Shown one piece after another: positions 53,331 to 59,066 of a stretch of DNA of 64,000 nt. Position 1 is the stretch's first letter. Each line of letters begins with the position of its first letter. The stretch is taken from positions 806,001-870,000 of the forward strand of contig NZ_OW711693.1 in assembly GCF_940670685.1 (NCBI RefSeq). The letters run 5' to 3'. The notes beneath the pieces were generated by a model. That model did not search any database. It had not been told where the DNA came from and was given only the letters and a program-made list of their open reading frames with translations. The translations under genes and the position numbers were made by a program. The stretch is from Anaeropeptidivorans aminofermentans (lineage in GTDB: Bacteria; Bacillota; Clostridia; Lachnospirales; UBA5962).

Positions 53331-53918
53331 ATGGATATTATATTTGCCACAAAAAACAAAGGAAAATTAAAGGAAGTTAAAGCCATATTGGAAGGCTATA
53401 ATGTAATGGGCATGGAAGAAGCCGGAATAGAGATTGACGTTATTGAAGACGGAGAAACATTTGAGGATAACGCCATTAAAAAAGCAAAGGAAATTATGCT
53501 TATTTCCAATAAAATAGTTCTTGCAGACGATTCCGGTATAGAAATTGATTATCTTGATAAAAAGCCGGGGGTTCATTCTGCAAGGTTTTTGGGAGAGAAT
53601 ACCCCTTATACCATAAAAAATCAAAAGGTGCTTGAAATGCTTGAAAGCGCAAAAAAAGAAGAAAGAACGGCACGATATGTAGCTGTTATAGCAGCTGCGT
53701 TTCCCGATGGTACAGTACTTACGGAAAGAGGCATTATGGAAGGAGAAATTGCCCAGGAGCCAAAGGGAGAAAACGGCTTCGGCTATGACCCTATATTTTA
53801 TATACCGGAATATAAGCTTACGGTTGCTGAAATGGAGCCTGCCGAGAAAAATAAAATAAGCCATAGGGGAATAGCCCTTAGGGCCATAAAAAAGAGACTG
53901 GACGAGAAGATTTCGTAA
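53331..53918 (+). CDS. rdgB: XTP/dITP pyrophosphatase (RdgB/HAM1)
   Basis: It hydrolyses non-canonical purine triphosphates (XTP, dITP) to avoid their use in nucleic acids. The 195-residue protein begins DIIFATKNKGKLKEVKAIL, the family substrate loop T/S-x-N-x-x-K. ADDSGIEID (about 66-74) and GFGYDPIFYIPE (about 149-160) are the other signatures. CGGAGGAAG lies before the ATG. It starts 30 bases after the hpf terminator. Confidence 0.96.
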   Translation: MDIIFATKNKGKLKEVKAILEGYNVMGMEEAGIEIDVIEDGETFEDNAIKKAKEIMLISNKIVLADDSGIEIDYLDKKPGVHSARFLGENTPYTIKNQKVLEMLESAKKEERTARYVAVIAAAFPDGTVLTERGIMEGEIAQEPKGENGFGYDPIFYIPEYKLTVAEMEPAEKNKISHRGIALRAIKKRLDEKIS

Positions 53919-54101
53919 AGGCAGTACTCGCGGCTTTTACGTATAGCCAATTTGCCTTTATCCTGAAGTGAATATTAGACTTTAGAGGGCCTAAAATAAG
54001 AGAAAAGTAAATTGCAACATATTTATTCGTATGGCTGTAAGAGTGAAATAATTCAGAGTAAGTTTATAAATTATACGCTATTTAAAAAAGAGAAAGAATT
54101 T
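53919..54101. other. region between rdgB and repeat copy
   Basis: No gene seen. A copy of the AAAATAAGAGAAAAGTAAAT motif lies at 53991-54016. The rest is AT-rich. Confidence 0.4.
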
Positions 54102-54244
54102 TATTGTAAATTTAATATGAAGAAGCAGCAAAGCCTATTCTGTTCCCAGCAAGATTAAAAATAAGGATTTCCTTCGGAAACGGTACGTTTTTGAGCTTTT
54201 GTGAATATACGGCTTTGCTGCTGTTTAACTTTAAATTTACTATA
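54102..54244. repeat. TATAGTAAATTT palindromic element
   Basis: TATTGTAAATTT and AAATTTACTATA end a 143-base unit. Inner GAAGCAGCAAAGCC pairs with GGCTTTGCTGC. GGATTTCCTTCGGAAACGG and TTTTTGAG match the 49191 copy. It directly abuts the htpG terminator. Confidence 0.8.
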
Positions 54245-54248
54245 AACG

Positions 54249-54286
54249 AAAAAGGTATTGCAAAATTATTTTGCAATACCTTTTTT
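54249..54286. terminator. htpG terminator (bidirectional)
   Basis: AAAAAGGTATTGCAAAA, TTA, TTTTGCAATACCTTTTTT: a long AT-flanked stem directly beyond the htpG stop codon at 54292. It reads well on both strands. Confidence 0.9.
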
Positions 54287-54291
54287 AAGTA

Positions 54292-56151
54292 TTATTTATT
54301 TGCTATCATATCAAGTATTTTATTGTTTCTTTCAATAAATGCGCTCATTTCCTCCGGCGGAAGGGGCTTATGGCTCATCATTGCAAGGTCGTATATCTGG
54401 CGGCAGATTAGAAGCATATCTTCTTTTTTATTTTCATTATCCTTAAGGGCAAGAAGCGTTTTAACCAGGTTGTTATTATTGTTTATAATCAGAGTTTCCT
54501 GAGATTTAAAGCCTTCTCCTATGCCGGCAAACATTTTGCTCATTTCCTGCATTCTTCTGTCCTGCTCACTTAAAAGAACGATTGCCGGTGTATTTTCAGA
54601 TTTCAGGGTTTCTACCTCTATTTTTATGTCCTCGCCGATGGCATTTTTAAAAATTTCTGCAATGGCTTCGTTATTTTCGCTGCTTCCTTCTTCGGATTTA
54701 AGGTTTTTGCTTATTTCAGCATCTATTCTTAAGAATTTTATGCCTTCTGAATAAGATTCGATATAAGAAATAAAGGGATTGTCTATTACGGTATTTAATA
54801 TGAGCGGCTCTATGCCTTGTTCTTTAAAAAGCTTGATATATTGAGACTGCTGAACAAGGTCGGAGGCATAGTATATTTCCTTCGTATTGTATTTTTCCGT
54901 ATATTCATTTAAAGTGAGATGCTCTTCTGCCGTTGTTTTAAATAAAAGGCTGTCTTTAATTTTATCGTAGAAGGATTTATCCTTAATACAGCCGAATTTA
55001 ATAAAGATATTGACATCATCCCAGAATTTAGCGTAATTATCCCTATCCTTTTTAAATAGGGAATTCAGCTTATCTGCGACCTTCCTCGTAATATAGCCGG
55101 ACATTTTTGAAACATTGGCATCGTTTTGCAAGAAGCTTCTGGATACGTTAAGAGGAATATCGGGGCAGTCCAGAACGCCTTTTAAAAGAAGCAGGAATTC
55201 AGGAACTACTTCCTTCACGTTGTCTGCAACGAAAACCTGATTGCAGTAAAGCTTAATTTCTCCTTCCATAGGCTCAAAATCGTTTTTAAGTTTAGGAAAG
55301 TAAAGGATGCCTTTAAGGTTAAAGGGATAGTCCATATTTAAATGAATCCAAAATAAAGGCTCATTAAAATCCATAAATACAGTATGGTAAAATTCTTTAT
55401 ATTCTTCGTCTGTTACTTCAGAAGCCTTTTTAAGCCAAAGAGGCTTGGTGTCGTTTATGGGTAATGGCTCTGAAGTTTTTTCTTCCTCTTCGCCTTCTTC
55501 TTTTTCCTTAGATTTTTCATTTTCATCAATGAGATAGATTTCATAAGGCATGAAGCTGCAGTATTTTTTCAGAATCTCATTTAGTTTATAACGAGAGAGA
55601 AAGTCTTTGCTTTCTTCATTTATGTGAAGGGTTATTTCAGTTCCTCTTTCAGCCTTCGTACCTTCTGAAATTTCATATTCTATGCCGCCGTGGCATATCC
55701 ATTTGGCGGCTTTGGCGCCTTCTGCATAGCTTAAAGAGTCAATTTCCACCGTGTCTGAAACCATAAAGGCCGAATAAAACCCAAGGCCGAAATGGCCTAT
55801 AATTTCATTTTCAGCGCCAAGCTTATCCTTATATTTTTCAATAAAGTCCTCTGCGCCGCTAAAGGCGATTTCATTGATATATTTATTTATTTCTTCGGCG
55901 GTCATACCAATGCCGTTATCCATTATTTTAATGGTCTTATTTTCCTTATTAAAAGTAACCTTAACGGAAAACTTTTCTTCCGGGGAAACGAAAGGGGCCT
56001 CCCCCATATCCCTAAGCTTTATAAGCTTTGTAATAGCGTCGCAGCCGTTGGATACAAGCTCCCTTAAAAATATATCCATATCGGAATAAAGCCATTTTTT
56101 TATAATGGGCAAGAGATTTTCACTGTTTATGGATAAATTTCCTTTTTCCAT
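54292..56151 (-). CDS. htpG: chaperone HtpG (Hsp90)
   Basis: HtpG is the cytosolic ATP-dependent Hsp90 chaperone. The 619-residue protein has the GHKL ATPase N domain (about 1-215) with FLRELVSNGCDAITKL, IMDNGIGMT and GHFGLGFYSAFMVSD, then an acidic linker (KEKEEGEEEEKTSE, about 208-225), middle and C-terminal domains with ending NNKILDMI. AGGAGGAAAATCA precedes the ATG. A CIRCE-like operator and a good SigA promoter lie upstream at 56340-56402, so heat-shock control by HrcA is likely. Confidence 0.96.
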   Translation of the reverse strand: MEKGNLSINSENLLPIIKKWLYSDMDIFLRELVSNGCDAITKLIKLRDMGEAPFVSPEEKFSVKVTFNKENKTIKIMDNGIGMTAEEINKYINEIAFSGAEDFIEKYKDKLGAENEIIGHFGLGFYSAFMVSDTVEIDSLSYAEGAKAAKWICHGGIEYEISEGTKAERGTEITLHINEESKDFLSRYKLNEILKKYCSFMPYEIYLIDENEKSKEKEEGEEEEKTSEPLPINDTKPLWLKKASEVTDEEYKEFYHTVFMDFNEPLFWIHLNMDYPFNLKGILYFPKLKNDFEPMEGEIKLYCNQVFVADNVKEVVPEFLLLLKGVLDCPDIPLNVSRSFLQNDANVSKMSGYITRKVADKLNSLFKKDRDNYAKFWDDVNIFIKFGCIKDKSFYDKIKDSLLFKTTAEEHLTLNEYTEKYNTKEIYYASDLVQQSQYIKLFKEQGIEPLILNTVIDNPFISYIESYSEGIKFLRIDAEISKNLKSEEGSSENNEAIAEIFKNAIGEDIKIEVETLKSENTPAIVLLSEQDRRMQEMSKMFAGIGEGFKSQETLIINNNNNLVKTLLALKDNENKKEDMLLICRQIYDLAMMSHKPLPPEEMSAFIERNNKILDMIANK

Positions 56152-56222
56152 TGATTTTCCTCCTTATTTGGTTCATATTTCTTTAGGCTTTAGAAAAGCT
56201 AAGTATAGTAAAACCAAGTAAA

Positions 56223-56336
56223 TATAGTAAATTTATTCTGAAGAAATAACAAAAGCCTGTTCTCTATGGAAATCCGTATTTTTGAACTATGGAGAACGGG
56301 ATTTTGCGGCTATTTTACTTTGTTTAACTATATATA
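56223..56336. repeat. palindromic element inside the htpG leader
   Basis: TATAGTAAATTT (56223-56234) begins a copy whose other end is degenerate (TTTAACTATATATAAAT). CTATGGAAATCCGTATTTTTGAACTATGG resembles the inner part of other copies. It lies between the predicted htpG start site and its start codon, so it would be transcribed. Confidence 0.6.
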
Positions 56337-56339
56337 AAT

Positions 56340-56368
56340 ATAATAAGTAGTAGCATCAGAAAAGTCAA
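56340..56368 (-). promoter_or_regulatory. SigA-type promoter of htpG
   Basis: Minus strand TTGACT (56363-56368), a 17-base spacer and TATTAT (56340-56345): five of six matches at each box. The start would be near 56333, giving a leader of about 180 bases. Confidence 0.75.
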
Positions 56369-56375
56369 TAAAAAA

Positions 56376-56402
56376 TTAGCACTCAACGCCGTCAAGTGCT
56401 AA
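56376..56402. promoter_or_regulatory. CIRCE-like HrcA operator
   Basis: TTAGCACTC, nine bases and AAGTGCTAA: the CIRCE consensus TTAGCACTC-N9-GAGTGCTAA with a single mismatch and the exact 9-base spacer. It lies 7 bases upstream of the htpG -35 box. Confidence 0.88.
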
Positions 56403-56409
56403 CAAAAGT

Positions 56410-56871
56410 TTAATTATCGTAAACAACAGCGATTTTATTTTCTTTGAAAAAGTTTTTTATATATTCCTCCCAAACCAAATCCAGCTCTTTATTTAAGGCA
56501 AAGGTCTTTTGACTTGTGGCCGTGCTTAGATTAATTTCATTTCCGTTATAAATTAAATTAAGATATAAAGCGCCGGCATTTTGGTGAAGGACCTCTGCCT
56601 TTTCCTGAGGCATGGAAAATATAATTTTGATGGCTTTAGGCTTTTTATTTCCTTTGATGATGTCAAAGGCATAGGGCCTTAATTCTTCCCAAATACAGAA
56701 GTTTCTTGTTCTCTCGTCTTCTTCATCAGATGAGATTATGGCAGATATCTCAAATTTTGTAAATGTAATTATTTCTACACCTCTTACCTCAAAGAAATCA
56801 AATACATCCTTTTTAAACAGTGAAGCCATAAAATCCTTAACTTCACTTAGGGGAACTGAAAATGACAGCAT
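56410..56871 (-). CDS. DUF5721-family protein
   Basis: This 153-residue protein has the pattern VKDFMASLFKKDVFDFFEVRG, FCIWEELRPYAFDIIKGNKKPKAIKIIF and NAGALYLNLIYNGNEINLSTATS, which I recall from DUF5721 proteins of Lachnospirales and related clostridia. No catalytic motif or membrane helix is seen. GAGGATAAA precedes ATG 56871. It is tandem with htpG on the minus strand, but the promoter and CIRCE between them suggest separate transcription. Function unknown. Confidence 0.75.
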   Translation of the reverse strand: MLSFSVPLSEVKDFMASLFKKDVFDFFEVRGVEIITFTKFEISAIISSDEEDERTRNFCIWEELRPYAFDIIKGNKKPKAIKIIFSMPQEKAEVLHQNAGALYLNLIYNGNEINLSTATSQKTFALNKELDLVWEEYIKNFFKENKIAVVYDN

Positions 56872-57155
56872 TTTATCCTCCGTATCAATAGCCCTGTAAA
56901 TGTGAAAGACTTTCAGGGCTTATATTCAGGCCAAAAACAAGAAAAGTATTTGACCTTCGCCGAAAATTGGTTTTGCAGGCACCTGCGACGCTAAAACAAA
57001 GAGCTTACCAGATATTGTTTTAGCGTTTATCTTAGGCCTATATTGCAGTTCTATTAAAACAATAGTATAATTATAGCATTTCTTGCAAAAATATGAAATA
57101 GGAAAGATAGGCCCCTATTAAGCCTTTCCGGAGATTTGAAACAGATTATTTCATG
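56872..57155. other. non-coding region between DUF5721 and glnS promoter
   Basis: No gene seen. GACGCTAAAACAA (56988-57000) and TTGTTTTAGCGTT (57018-57030) can pair across a short spacer; CCTATA and AGGCCTA runs follow. Two minus-strand promoters could start here. Confidence 0.35.
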
Positions 57156-57164
57156 TGGTATAAT
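57156..57164 (+). promoter_or_regulatory. extended -10 promoter before glnS
   Basis: TGG followed by TATAAT (57159-57164): a TGnTATAAT box, as at 23571. The transcript would carry the hairpin at 57166-57198 at its 5' end and a leader of about 230 bases before glnS. Confidence 0.55.
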
Positions 57165-57165
57165 G

Positions 57166-57198
57166 GAAACAAAATTAAGCGAAGCTTAATTTTGTTTC
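57166..57198. repeat. perfect 15-bp hairpin, copy 2 of promoter-hairpin module
   Basis: GAAACAAAATTAAGC, loop GAA, GCTTAATTTTGTTTC. It differs from copy 1 at two stem positions, with matching changes in both arms. A partial second copy of the right flank (GATTTTGTTTCTGAATACATTTC) lies at about 57271-57293. Confidence 0.8.
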
Positions 57199-57398
57199 TG
57201 AATACATTTCTCGAAGAGGAGTGTATGAGTATATATGGCAAAAAAGGAAACTGGCAAATCAAACTGTATTTGATTTTGTTTCTGAATACATTTCCGAAGG
57301 GAAATGCAGGAGCAGGCAATAATTTGATTAGTATAAAAAAACTACGACTATAGTATAATTTATATATTATTTATCTTACGTAAAAGCAGGAGGTTATT

Positions 57399-59066
57399 AT
57401 GGAAAACAGGAGCGAAAGCAGCTTAAGCGAAACCGGCAATTTTATTCACGCTTATATTAACGAAGATTTAGAGGGAAGACTGAACCAAGTGCATACACGC
57501 TTTCCTCCGGAGCCTAACGGTTACCTTCATATAGGCCATGCCAAGGCCATTACTTTGAATTACAGCATTGCAAAAATGTACGGGGGAAAGTTCAATCTGC
57601 GTTTTGACGACACCAATCCGGCCAAGGAGGATACGGAATACGTAGAATCTATTATAAGGGATATTAAATGGCTTGGGGCGGACTGGGAAGACAGGCTTTA
57701 TTTTGCGTCGGATTATTTTGAGCAGTTTTATGAGATGGCAATTACGCTGATAAAAAAAGGCAAGGCCTTCGTCTGCGACCTTACAGCAGAGGAAATCAGG
57801 CAATACAGGGGAACATTAAACGCCCCGGGGAAGGAAAGCCCCTATAGAAACAGGACGATAGAAGAAAACCTTGATTTGTTTGAGAGAATGAAAAACGGGG
57901 AATTCCCCGATGGCTCCAGAACATTAAGGGCTAAAATTGACATGAGCTCTCCCAATATTAATATGAGAGATCCTGTTATTTACCGTATCGCTAAAATACC
58001 GCATCATAGAACAGGGGATAAATGGTGTATTTATCCGATGTATGACTATGCTCATCCCCTTGAAGATGCTATCGAGGGAATCACCCATTCCCTTTGCTCC
58101 ATGGAGTTTGAAGACCATAGGCCTCTTTATGACTGGTTCATCAATGAGCTTGATTTTGAGCTGAAACCAAGGCAGATAGAATTTGCAAAACTTTATCTTA
58201 CCAATACCATTGTAGGAAAAAGATATTTAAAGGCCCTTGTAGATAATAAAGAGGTTGACGGCTGGGACGATCCAAGGCTTGCGACCCTTTCAGGCATGAG
58301 AAGAAGAGGCTATACACCGGAAGCTTTGATTGACTTCCTTGAAAAAATAGGGGTATCAAAGGCCAACAGCAAGGTAGATTATTCCTTTCTTGAATACTGC
58401 GTAAGAGATGATTTGAAGCTTCGCTCAAAGGTAGTAATGGCGGTTCTTGACCCTGTGAAGCTTGTGATAACAAATTACCCCGAAGGGGAAGGGGAATACG
58501 TAACCCTTGAAAATAATCCTGAGGTTCCTGAAATGGGTACGAGAGAGGTACCTTTTTCAAGAGAGCTTTATATAGAGCGTTCAGACTTTATGGAAGATGC
58601 GCCTAAGAAATTCCACAGGCTTACGCCTGGGCAGGAGGTAAGGCTTAAAGGGGCATATTTTGTTACCTGTACAGACTTTGTGAAGGACGAAAACGGAAAT
58701 GTTACAGAGATACACGGCACCTATGACCCACAAACGAGAAGCGGCTCCGGCTTTGACGGCAGAAAGGTAAAAGGAACCATTCACTGGGTAAGCGCTCCTC
58801 ACGCCCTCAAAGTTACCGCAAGAGAATTTGACTTTATTGTTTTTGACGATGAAACAAGCGAAAACGGACTGAGGAAAAATCCTGATTCTCTTAAACTTTA
58901 TGAAAACTGCTACGTTGAGCCTTCTTTAAAAGAAGCAGCAGTTGAAGACAGGTTCCAGTTTATGAGGAACGGTTACTTTTGCATCGATTATAAGCTTTCA
59001 ACACCGGAAAATCTTGTTTTTAATGAGGTCGTAGCCCTTAAAAGCTCTTACAAGCCGGGAAATTAA
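57399..59066 (+). CDS. glnS: glutaminyl-tRNA synthetase
   Basis: GlnRS charges tRNA-Gln with glutamine. The 555-residue enzyme starts at ATG 57399 after GCAGGAGG. HIGH lies at residues 44-47 ([15 protein letters not shown]). The class I KMSKS counterpart is IVGKR at 271-275, whereas E. coli has [24 protein letters not shown] and the C-terminal anticodon-binding beta barrels ([14 protein letters not shown]) mark GlnRS rather than GluRS. No T-box leader is seen. A clostridial subfamily with GKR is known to me. Confidence 0.96.

Follow-up and report, generated by a model that had tools for sequence, protein, structure and literature searches.

In the Clostridia, the CIRCE operator of HrcA holds a near-fixed place upstream of the -35 box of htpG, and this class-wide operator geometry, which is special to htpG, carries the value of the finding more than any single site does. 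The site from which the analysis started lies in Anaeropeptidivorans aminofermentans, in a stretch of 64,000 nucleotides that was analysed whole and is called the window here. It is likely to be a true HrcA operator, placed ahead of the core promoter, from where it would repress htpG, and the prediction that htpG of this organism belongs to the HrcA/CIRCE regulon is sound. The features concerned are as follows.

54292-56151, minus strand: htpG (Hsp90), 619 amino acids; NF003555 at 661 bits (cut-off 371), and PF00183
56159-56165, minus strand: htpG ribosome-binding site AAGGAGG, by direct reading
56256-56300, no strand assigned: hairpin of a dispersed short repeat in the predicted htpG leader, core GGAAATCCGTATTTTTGAA
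56340-56345, minus strand: -10 box TATTAT, spacer 17, by direct reading
56363-56368, minus strand: -35 box TTGACT, by direct reading; TTGAC stands at this place in most CIRCE loci (counts below)
56369-56375, minus strand: gap TTTTTTA, 7 bp from CIRCE to the -35 box, forming the T-run of a possible terminator and an A+T-rich upstream promoter region
56375-56403, minus strand: the CIRCE inverted repeat read as a hairpin resembling an intrinsic terminator, with 13 pairs, 4 being G-C, and a T-rich tail after it
56376-56402, minus strand: predicted CIRCE operator, TTAGCACTT-N9-GAGTGCTAA on the htpG strand, one mismatch, conserved before htpG in other genomes
56410-56871, minus strand: upstream co-directional gene for a DUF5721 protein, 153 amino acids (PF18988, E 4.2e-29)

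A sequence-only reading of this region had described a CIRCE with one mismatch beside htpG, 7 bases upstream of a TTGACT-17-TATTAT promoter facing that gene, and both the operator and its distance from the promoter were confirmed, the latter by direct reading. On the plus strand, positions 56376-56402 read TTAGCACTC-N9-AAGTGCTAA, against a consensus for comparison of TTAGCACTC-N9-GAGTGCTAA; 17 of the 18 CIRCE positions are matched, and the mismatch falls in the promoter-distal arm. This is the sole CIRCE match at up to three mismatches in the window, whereas the mean over 100 shuffles was 0.01. A chance match as the source of this CIRCE is ruled out by the window shuffles, the matches elsewhere in the genome and the shuffled palindromes described below. 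The same reading had called the promoter strong and near-consensus. The motif is indeed there (10 of 12 positions) and is conserved, but the match alone does not rise above chance, as 12 promoter-like sites were found in 53800-57400 against 13.5 expected; support for TTGACT-17-TATTAT therefore comes from its conservation. Counting 7 bases past the -10 box, the start of htpG transcription is predicted at about 56333, and CIRCE would then span about -69 to -43 with its centre near -56. The overlap of operator with core promoter or start that is seen at groE and dnaK is absent here, the operator ending 7 bp upstream of the -35 box. This upstream place is a variant position, overlap being no criterion for HrcA binding.

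The -10 box is separated from htpG by 188 bases, and the start codon lies 224 bp past CIRCE. The dispersed repeat in this 224-bp stretch goes beyond what the sequence-only reading had described, as does the terminator-like combination of inverted repeat and T-run after the DUF5721 gene. The repeat family has 40 scored matches in the organism's own genome, this copy included, the weaker of which are doubtful, and the core GGAAATCCGTATTTTTGAA was found at 0-2 mismatches in 9 of the 10 copies read, again with this copy among them. The leader hairpin was also considered as an RNA thermometer; the leader has a folding energy of -31.7 kcal/mol (z -2.2, equalled in 4 of 200 shuffles), and the hairpin is a member of a dispersed repeat family. 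A leader of about 180 bp with a hairpin repeat, as the CIRCE-linked promoter would give, also suits a reading in which htpG is transcribed mainly from another promoter past the repeat, for example TTTACT-18-TATACT (56231-56202), which matches at 9 of 12 positions and stops 50 bp short of the start codon, the CIRCE-linked promoter being minor. However, promoter-like matches here number as expected by chance, the CIRCE-linked promoter is the one that is conserved, and long leaders occur at other loci too (for example, L016, L022 and L052), so we regard this reading as most improbable.

The absence of hrcA had been named beforehand as a point that would speak against HrcA control, and the gene is present in the genome (TIGR00331, 325 bits against a cut-off of 197.2). 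At up to three mismatches, CIRCE occurs at five places in the single contig of 3,757,330 bases, and a reversed control pattern at one. The five places have no mismatch at groESL and at hrcA, one at htpG and at hsp20, and two, lopsidedly placed, at mcsA; the genes that we take to be groES, groEL, hsp20 and mcsA were named from their reading frames. The search before groESL and dnaK that had been proposed thus returned perfect CIRCEs before groES and hrcA, together with the one-mismatch site before an hsp20-like gene, and these are all the CIRCEs with 0-1 mismatches in the 3.76-Mb genome other than that of htpG. At groES, hrcA and hsp20, CIRCE lies near the start codon, downstream of promoter-like sequence; among these genes and htpG, only htpG has CIRCE upstream of its promoter. 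The lopsided site (G000:C1:147399-147425, or L005 1501-1527) overlaps TTGATG-16-TATAAT before what are presumably, from their frames, mcsA and mcsB; it is a possible link of HrcA to the protein-arginine kinase operon, or a product of chance. Just past the CIRCE-preceded hsp20 gene stand two transposase-like frames (L004 2159-2647 and 2780-3025), which look to be of the IS200/IS605 type. Beyond htpG on its other side, a long A+T-rich inverted repeat at 54248-54286, terminator-like on both strands, lies between the convergent htpG and RdgB/HAM1-family genes. The proposal that htpG is under HrcA is supported by the hrcA gene, by this CIRCE set and by the conservation described next; what did not hold is that such control would be peculiar to this organism, as htpG has already been placed in the HrcA regulon for Clostridium in the accessible parts of two papers (PMC3828012, PMC8336468).

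Before htpG, CIRCE at up to three mismatches was found in 63 of 107 distinct loci, some of which carry little upstream sequence and are unable to show its absence. The loci were chosen as best HtpG matches and not at random: they come from 80 species genomes (the best of 587) and 30 relatives (the best 30 of 50 genomes with an HtpG match), the organism's own genome included, minus three repeats (L089, L091 and L102, on the same contigs as L007, L009 and L011). Start codons of L087-L116 were guessed from the open frame, and their start distances, some of them negative, were not used. A set of 103 loci, each with 500 bp or more of upstream sequence, retains the three repeats, so that three contigs are counted twice in it. 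In this set CIRCE was found at 63 loci, as against a mean of 0.025 and a maximum of 3 for shuffled palindromes, and the best CIRCE match inside the htpG gene had at least six mismatches in 103 of 103. No CIRCE was found within 500 bp of htpG at 40 of the 103, among them five titled Clostridium (L013, L026, L027, L056 and L073). The window's own family has the site in two of the five genomes examined (G000 and G001), and G004, G005 and G006 showed no CIRCE within about 600 bp of htpG. A second class-wide sample, the best 30 of 112 HtpG matches, gave CIRCE at 17 of 26 new htpG loci; three others were left out as repeats, L262 with CIRCE at gap 7 and L238 and L257 without CIRCE.

The position of the promoter relative to these operators is close to constant. 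Downstream of the htpG CIRCE, 57 of the 63 loci have TTGAC after a gap of 6-8 bp (6 bp in 4 loci, 7 bp in 48 and 8 bp in 5), and the scan of the 103-locus set found TTGAC at no other offset between -12 and +40. The 17 CIRCE loci of the second sample have TTGAC at gap 7 in 13 and at gap 8 in 1, and TTGAA at gap 7 in 3. The six loci without TTGAC at gap 6-8 are L081 and five Peptostreptococcaceae-like ones (L030 Romboutsia, L039 Eubacterium tenue, L041 Terrisporobacter, L044 Asaccharospora and L025, an uncultured Peptostreptococcaceae bacterium). In these five, the right arm of CIRCE contains the -35 box: TTGACA or TTGATA begins 13 bases ahead of the end of CIRCE, and a -10 box follows after 16-17 bases. 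This -35 stands 20 bp, or about two helical turns, from the gap-7 place, and its position inside the operator fits occlusion. A groES-like arrangement at htpG, with the promoter upstream and CIRCE in the leader, is not favoured, TTGAC being downstream in 57 of 63.

This spacing is peculiar to htpG when compared with hrcA and groES. A search for perfect CIRCE followed by TTGAC within 30 bp, which demands perfect arms and so leaves the window's site uncounted and all of G000-G006 at zero, found such a site in 219 of 392 genomes of the order. Among the 150 matches listed, in which a few CIRCEs appear twice, the gap is 7 in 114, 21 in 18, 8 in 3 and 6 in 1. Neighbourhoods were read at 50 of the listed sites, of which 40 were gap-7 sites and the other 10 lay at hrcA (8) or groES (2), and 39 of the 40 gap-7 sites precede htpG. 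The exception, L217, has a perfect CIRCE at 1399-1425 with TTGAC at gap 7 and no HtpG, GroES, GroEL, HrcA or Hsp20 match; the next frame of at least 90 amino acids begins 955 bp downstream of this CIRCE. In the same order, CIRCE was present at 28 of 30 hrcA loci and 28 of 30 groES loci (own genome included), and TTGAC was found within 45 bp downstream of none of these 56 operators. Promoter fits, sought only within 60 bp upstream of CIRCE, placed a -10 box ending 7-13 bases before the operator in 28 of 28 hrcA loci and 5-15 bases before it in 22 of 28 groES loci, although the latter fits are weak (8-10 of 12). TTGAC at gap 7 before htpG, as against none at these hrcA and groES operators, indicates that htpG has a fixed operator geometry of its own. 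The upstream-of-minus-35 place, noted at first for one site as a departure from the usual downstream one, is thus kept by htpG throughout the class, and in the order it is unlike that at hrcA and groES. The spacing probably has a function, as the gap length is near-constant while its letters vary (24 distinct 7-mers in the 48 gap-7 loci) and the distance from CIRCE to the start of the HtpG match ranges between about 70 and about 400 bases.

The inverted repeat also resembles an intrinsic terminator. The stop codon of the co-directional DUF5721 gene ends 7 bp before CIRCE, and the hairpin, which starts 6 bp past that stop codon, folds at -14.6 kcal/mol (z -5.5). A DUF5721-like frame stands within 2.2 kb upstream of htpG at 32 of 107 loci, 23 with CIRCE and 9 without. 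T-rich gaps (at least 5 T of 7) occur at 36 of the 63 htpG CIRCE sites, and at least 5 T in the next 8 bases were found at none of the 56 hrcA and groES sites, as expected if a terminator in the leader would be harmful. With upstream orientation called roughly, from stop-to-stop frames within 400 bp, T-rich gaps number 30 of 45 at co-directional and 6 of 16 at divergent loci (Fisher p 0.07); at four of the loci called divergent, a DUF5721-like frame in the same direction as htpG stands 450-600 bp beyond. The 13-pair hairpin with its T-rich tail, and this distribution of T-rich gaps, would be explained if the repeat were the DUF5721 terminator only and its likeness to CIRCE accidental. We give that explanation hardly any credence: a match at 17 of 18 positions is set against 0.01 expected at up to three mismatches, CIRCE is kept at the 16 loci roughly called divergent (15 with TTGAC at gap 6-8), and it is also kept where the gap is A-rich. 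Termination was accordingly rejected as the sole function and retained as a secondary role. The A-rich gaps at some loci indicate that such double use is not general; in this genome, the inverted repeat and T-run probably also end the DUF5721 transcript.

The usual description of HrcA is of a roadblock that covers the core promoter or start site, and a layout with the repressor at -56 and the -35 box left free is unusual for it. During normal growth, HrcA at about -69 to -43 would abut the -35 box and cover the region of the RNA polymerase alpha C-terminal domain, and would so keep htpG from being initiated at a high rate. When heat or unfolded proteins stress the cell, HrcA would become less active and htpG would be induced together with groESL, hrcA-grpE-dnaK and hsp20. 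The near-constant 7-bp gap would follow if the repressor had to keep one position, and one helical phase, with respect to polymerase. HrcA binding, repression and a polymerase clash at htpG are what we infer from the operator and its spacing. A centre near -56 is also typical of factors that touch the alpha C-terminal domain, and HrcA there might do more than block: by touching that domain or sigma region 4 it could set the basal htpG level, through weak activation or by holding polymerase at the promoter, and htpG would be regulated unlike groESL and dnaK. A spacing near-fixed at 7 while the gap sequence varies, and a site distinct from the downstream CIRCEs at hrcA and most groES loci, agree with such a contact, and two reports of htpG out of step with HrcA genes (PMC3408451, PMC4406174, accessible parts) would fit it. 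However, HrcA acts as a repressor in the available descriptions (PMC3828012, PMC7464140), htpG of C. acetobutylicum rises with the other HrcA genes under stress (PMC3828012), and pure repression by contact also predicts fixed spacing; we consider an added role of this kind distinctly unlikely.

Repression from the upstream site thus remains the preferred reading. A footprint of 30-40 bp, as described for Campylobacter HrcA in the accessible part of PMC7464140, would when centred on CIRCE reach the gap and not the -35 box, which suggests that HrcA would touch or crowd sigma region 4 and the alpha C-terminal domains. No solved HrcA-DNA complex was found, and the sole sequence match among solved structures is 1stz, an HrcA homolog. 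The 40 of 103 loci without CIRCE, the presence of the site in 2 of 5 genomes of the own family and a promoter match at chance level speak against the operator reading. A broader proposal, in which HrcA has a second mode at htpG in the Clostridia, by phased upstream contact with polymerase and perhaps as a dual regulator, with an operator that also serves to terminate the gene before it, is speculative and rather unlikely. The near-invariant 7-bp gap at htpG, beside the usual layout at hrcA and most groES loci, suggests one repressor with two geometries, which would offer a natural comparison for the effect of operator position and helical phase on repression strength and on the order of chaperone induction.

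Published reports, as far as their accessible parts go, place htpG both inside and outside the HrcA response. In C. acetobutylicum, htpG (CAC3315) was predicted to be under HrcA and was raised with HrcA genes under butanol and butyrate stress (PMC3828012), and a CIRCE was reported before hsp90 (Clocel_0510) in C. cellulovorans (PMC8336468). Heat raised htpG in C. botulinum (PMC3806222), and heat and furfural induced it in C. thermocellum (PMC3848806); the accessible parts of these two papers draw no tie to HrcA. Two cases in which htpG did not follow the HrcA genes count against the repression reading: C. beijerinckii hsp90 was unresponsive to ferulic acid when other HrcA genes responded (PMC4406174), and a shift of C. 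difficile to 41 degrees left the htpG transcript as it was while raising groES, groEL, dnaK, dnaJ, grpE and hrcA (PMC3408451), which cites earlier work for an increase of the HtpG protein. Both C. thermocellum (PMC3848806) and C. difficile (PMC3408451) htpG are listed as class IV. No description of a fixed upstream CIRCE position at htpG was found in the literature searched, which lay outside most subscription papers and RegPrecise.

Several known systems share part of this arrangement. In B. subtilis, also a Firmicute, the same gene is placed in class IV, under positive control and outside the HrcA genes (via the accessible part of PMC3408451). At the groES and hrcA promoters of Campylobacter and Helicobacter, a heat-shock repressor likewise sits upstream of the core promoter according to the portions seen of the reports; that repressor is HspR, with another operator, whereas HrcA there covers the core promoter and start site. 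The groESL operon of L. plantarum shares with this htpG site the operator type and the variant arm TTAGCACTT, but its CIRCE starts 3-4 nt downstream of the transcription start (PMC1676014, accessible part), in contrast to the htpG CIRCE, whose near end lies some 43 bp ahead of the predicted start. Closest is the Clostridium HrcA regulon, in which hrcA-dnaK, groESL and htpG stand together and an HrcA site or CIRCE lies upstream of htpG; the accessible parts of PMC3828012 and PMC8336468 do not say where the operator stands with respect to the promoter, whereas here it is 7 bp upstream of the -35 box. HrcA control of clostridial htpG is thus already in print, and the geometry is what is added.
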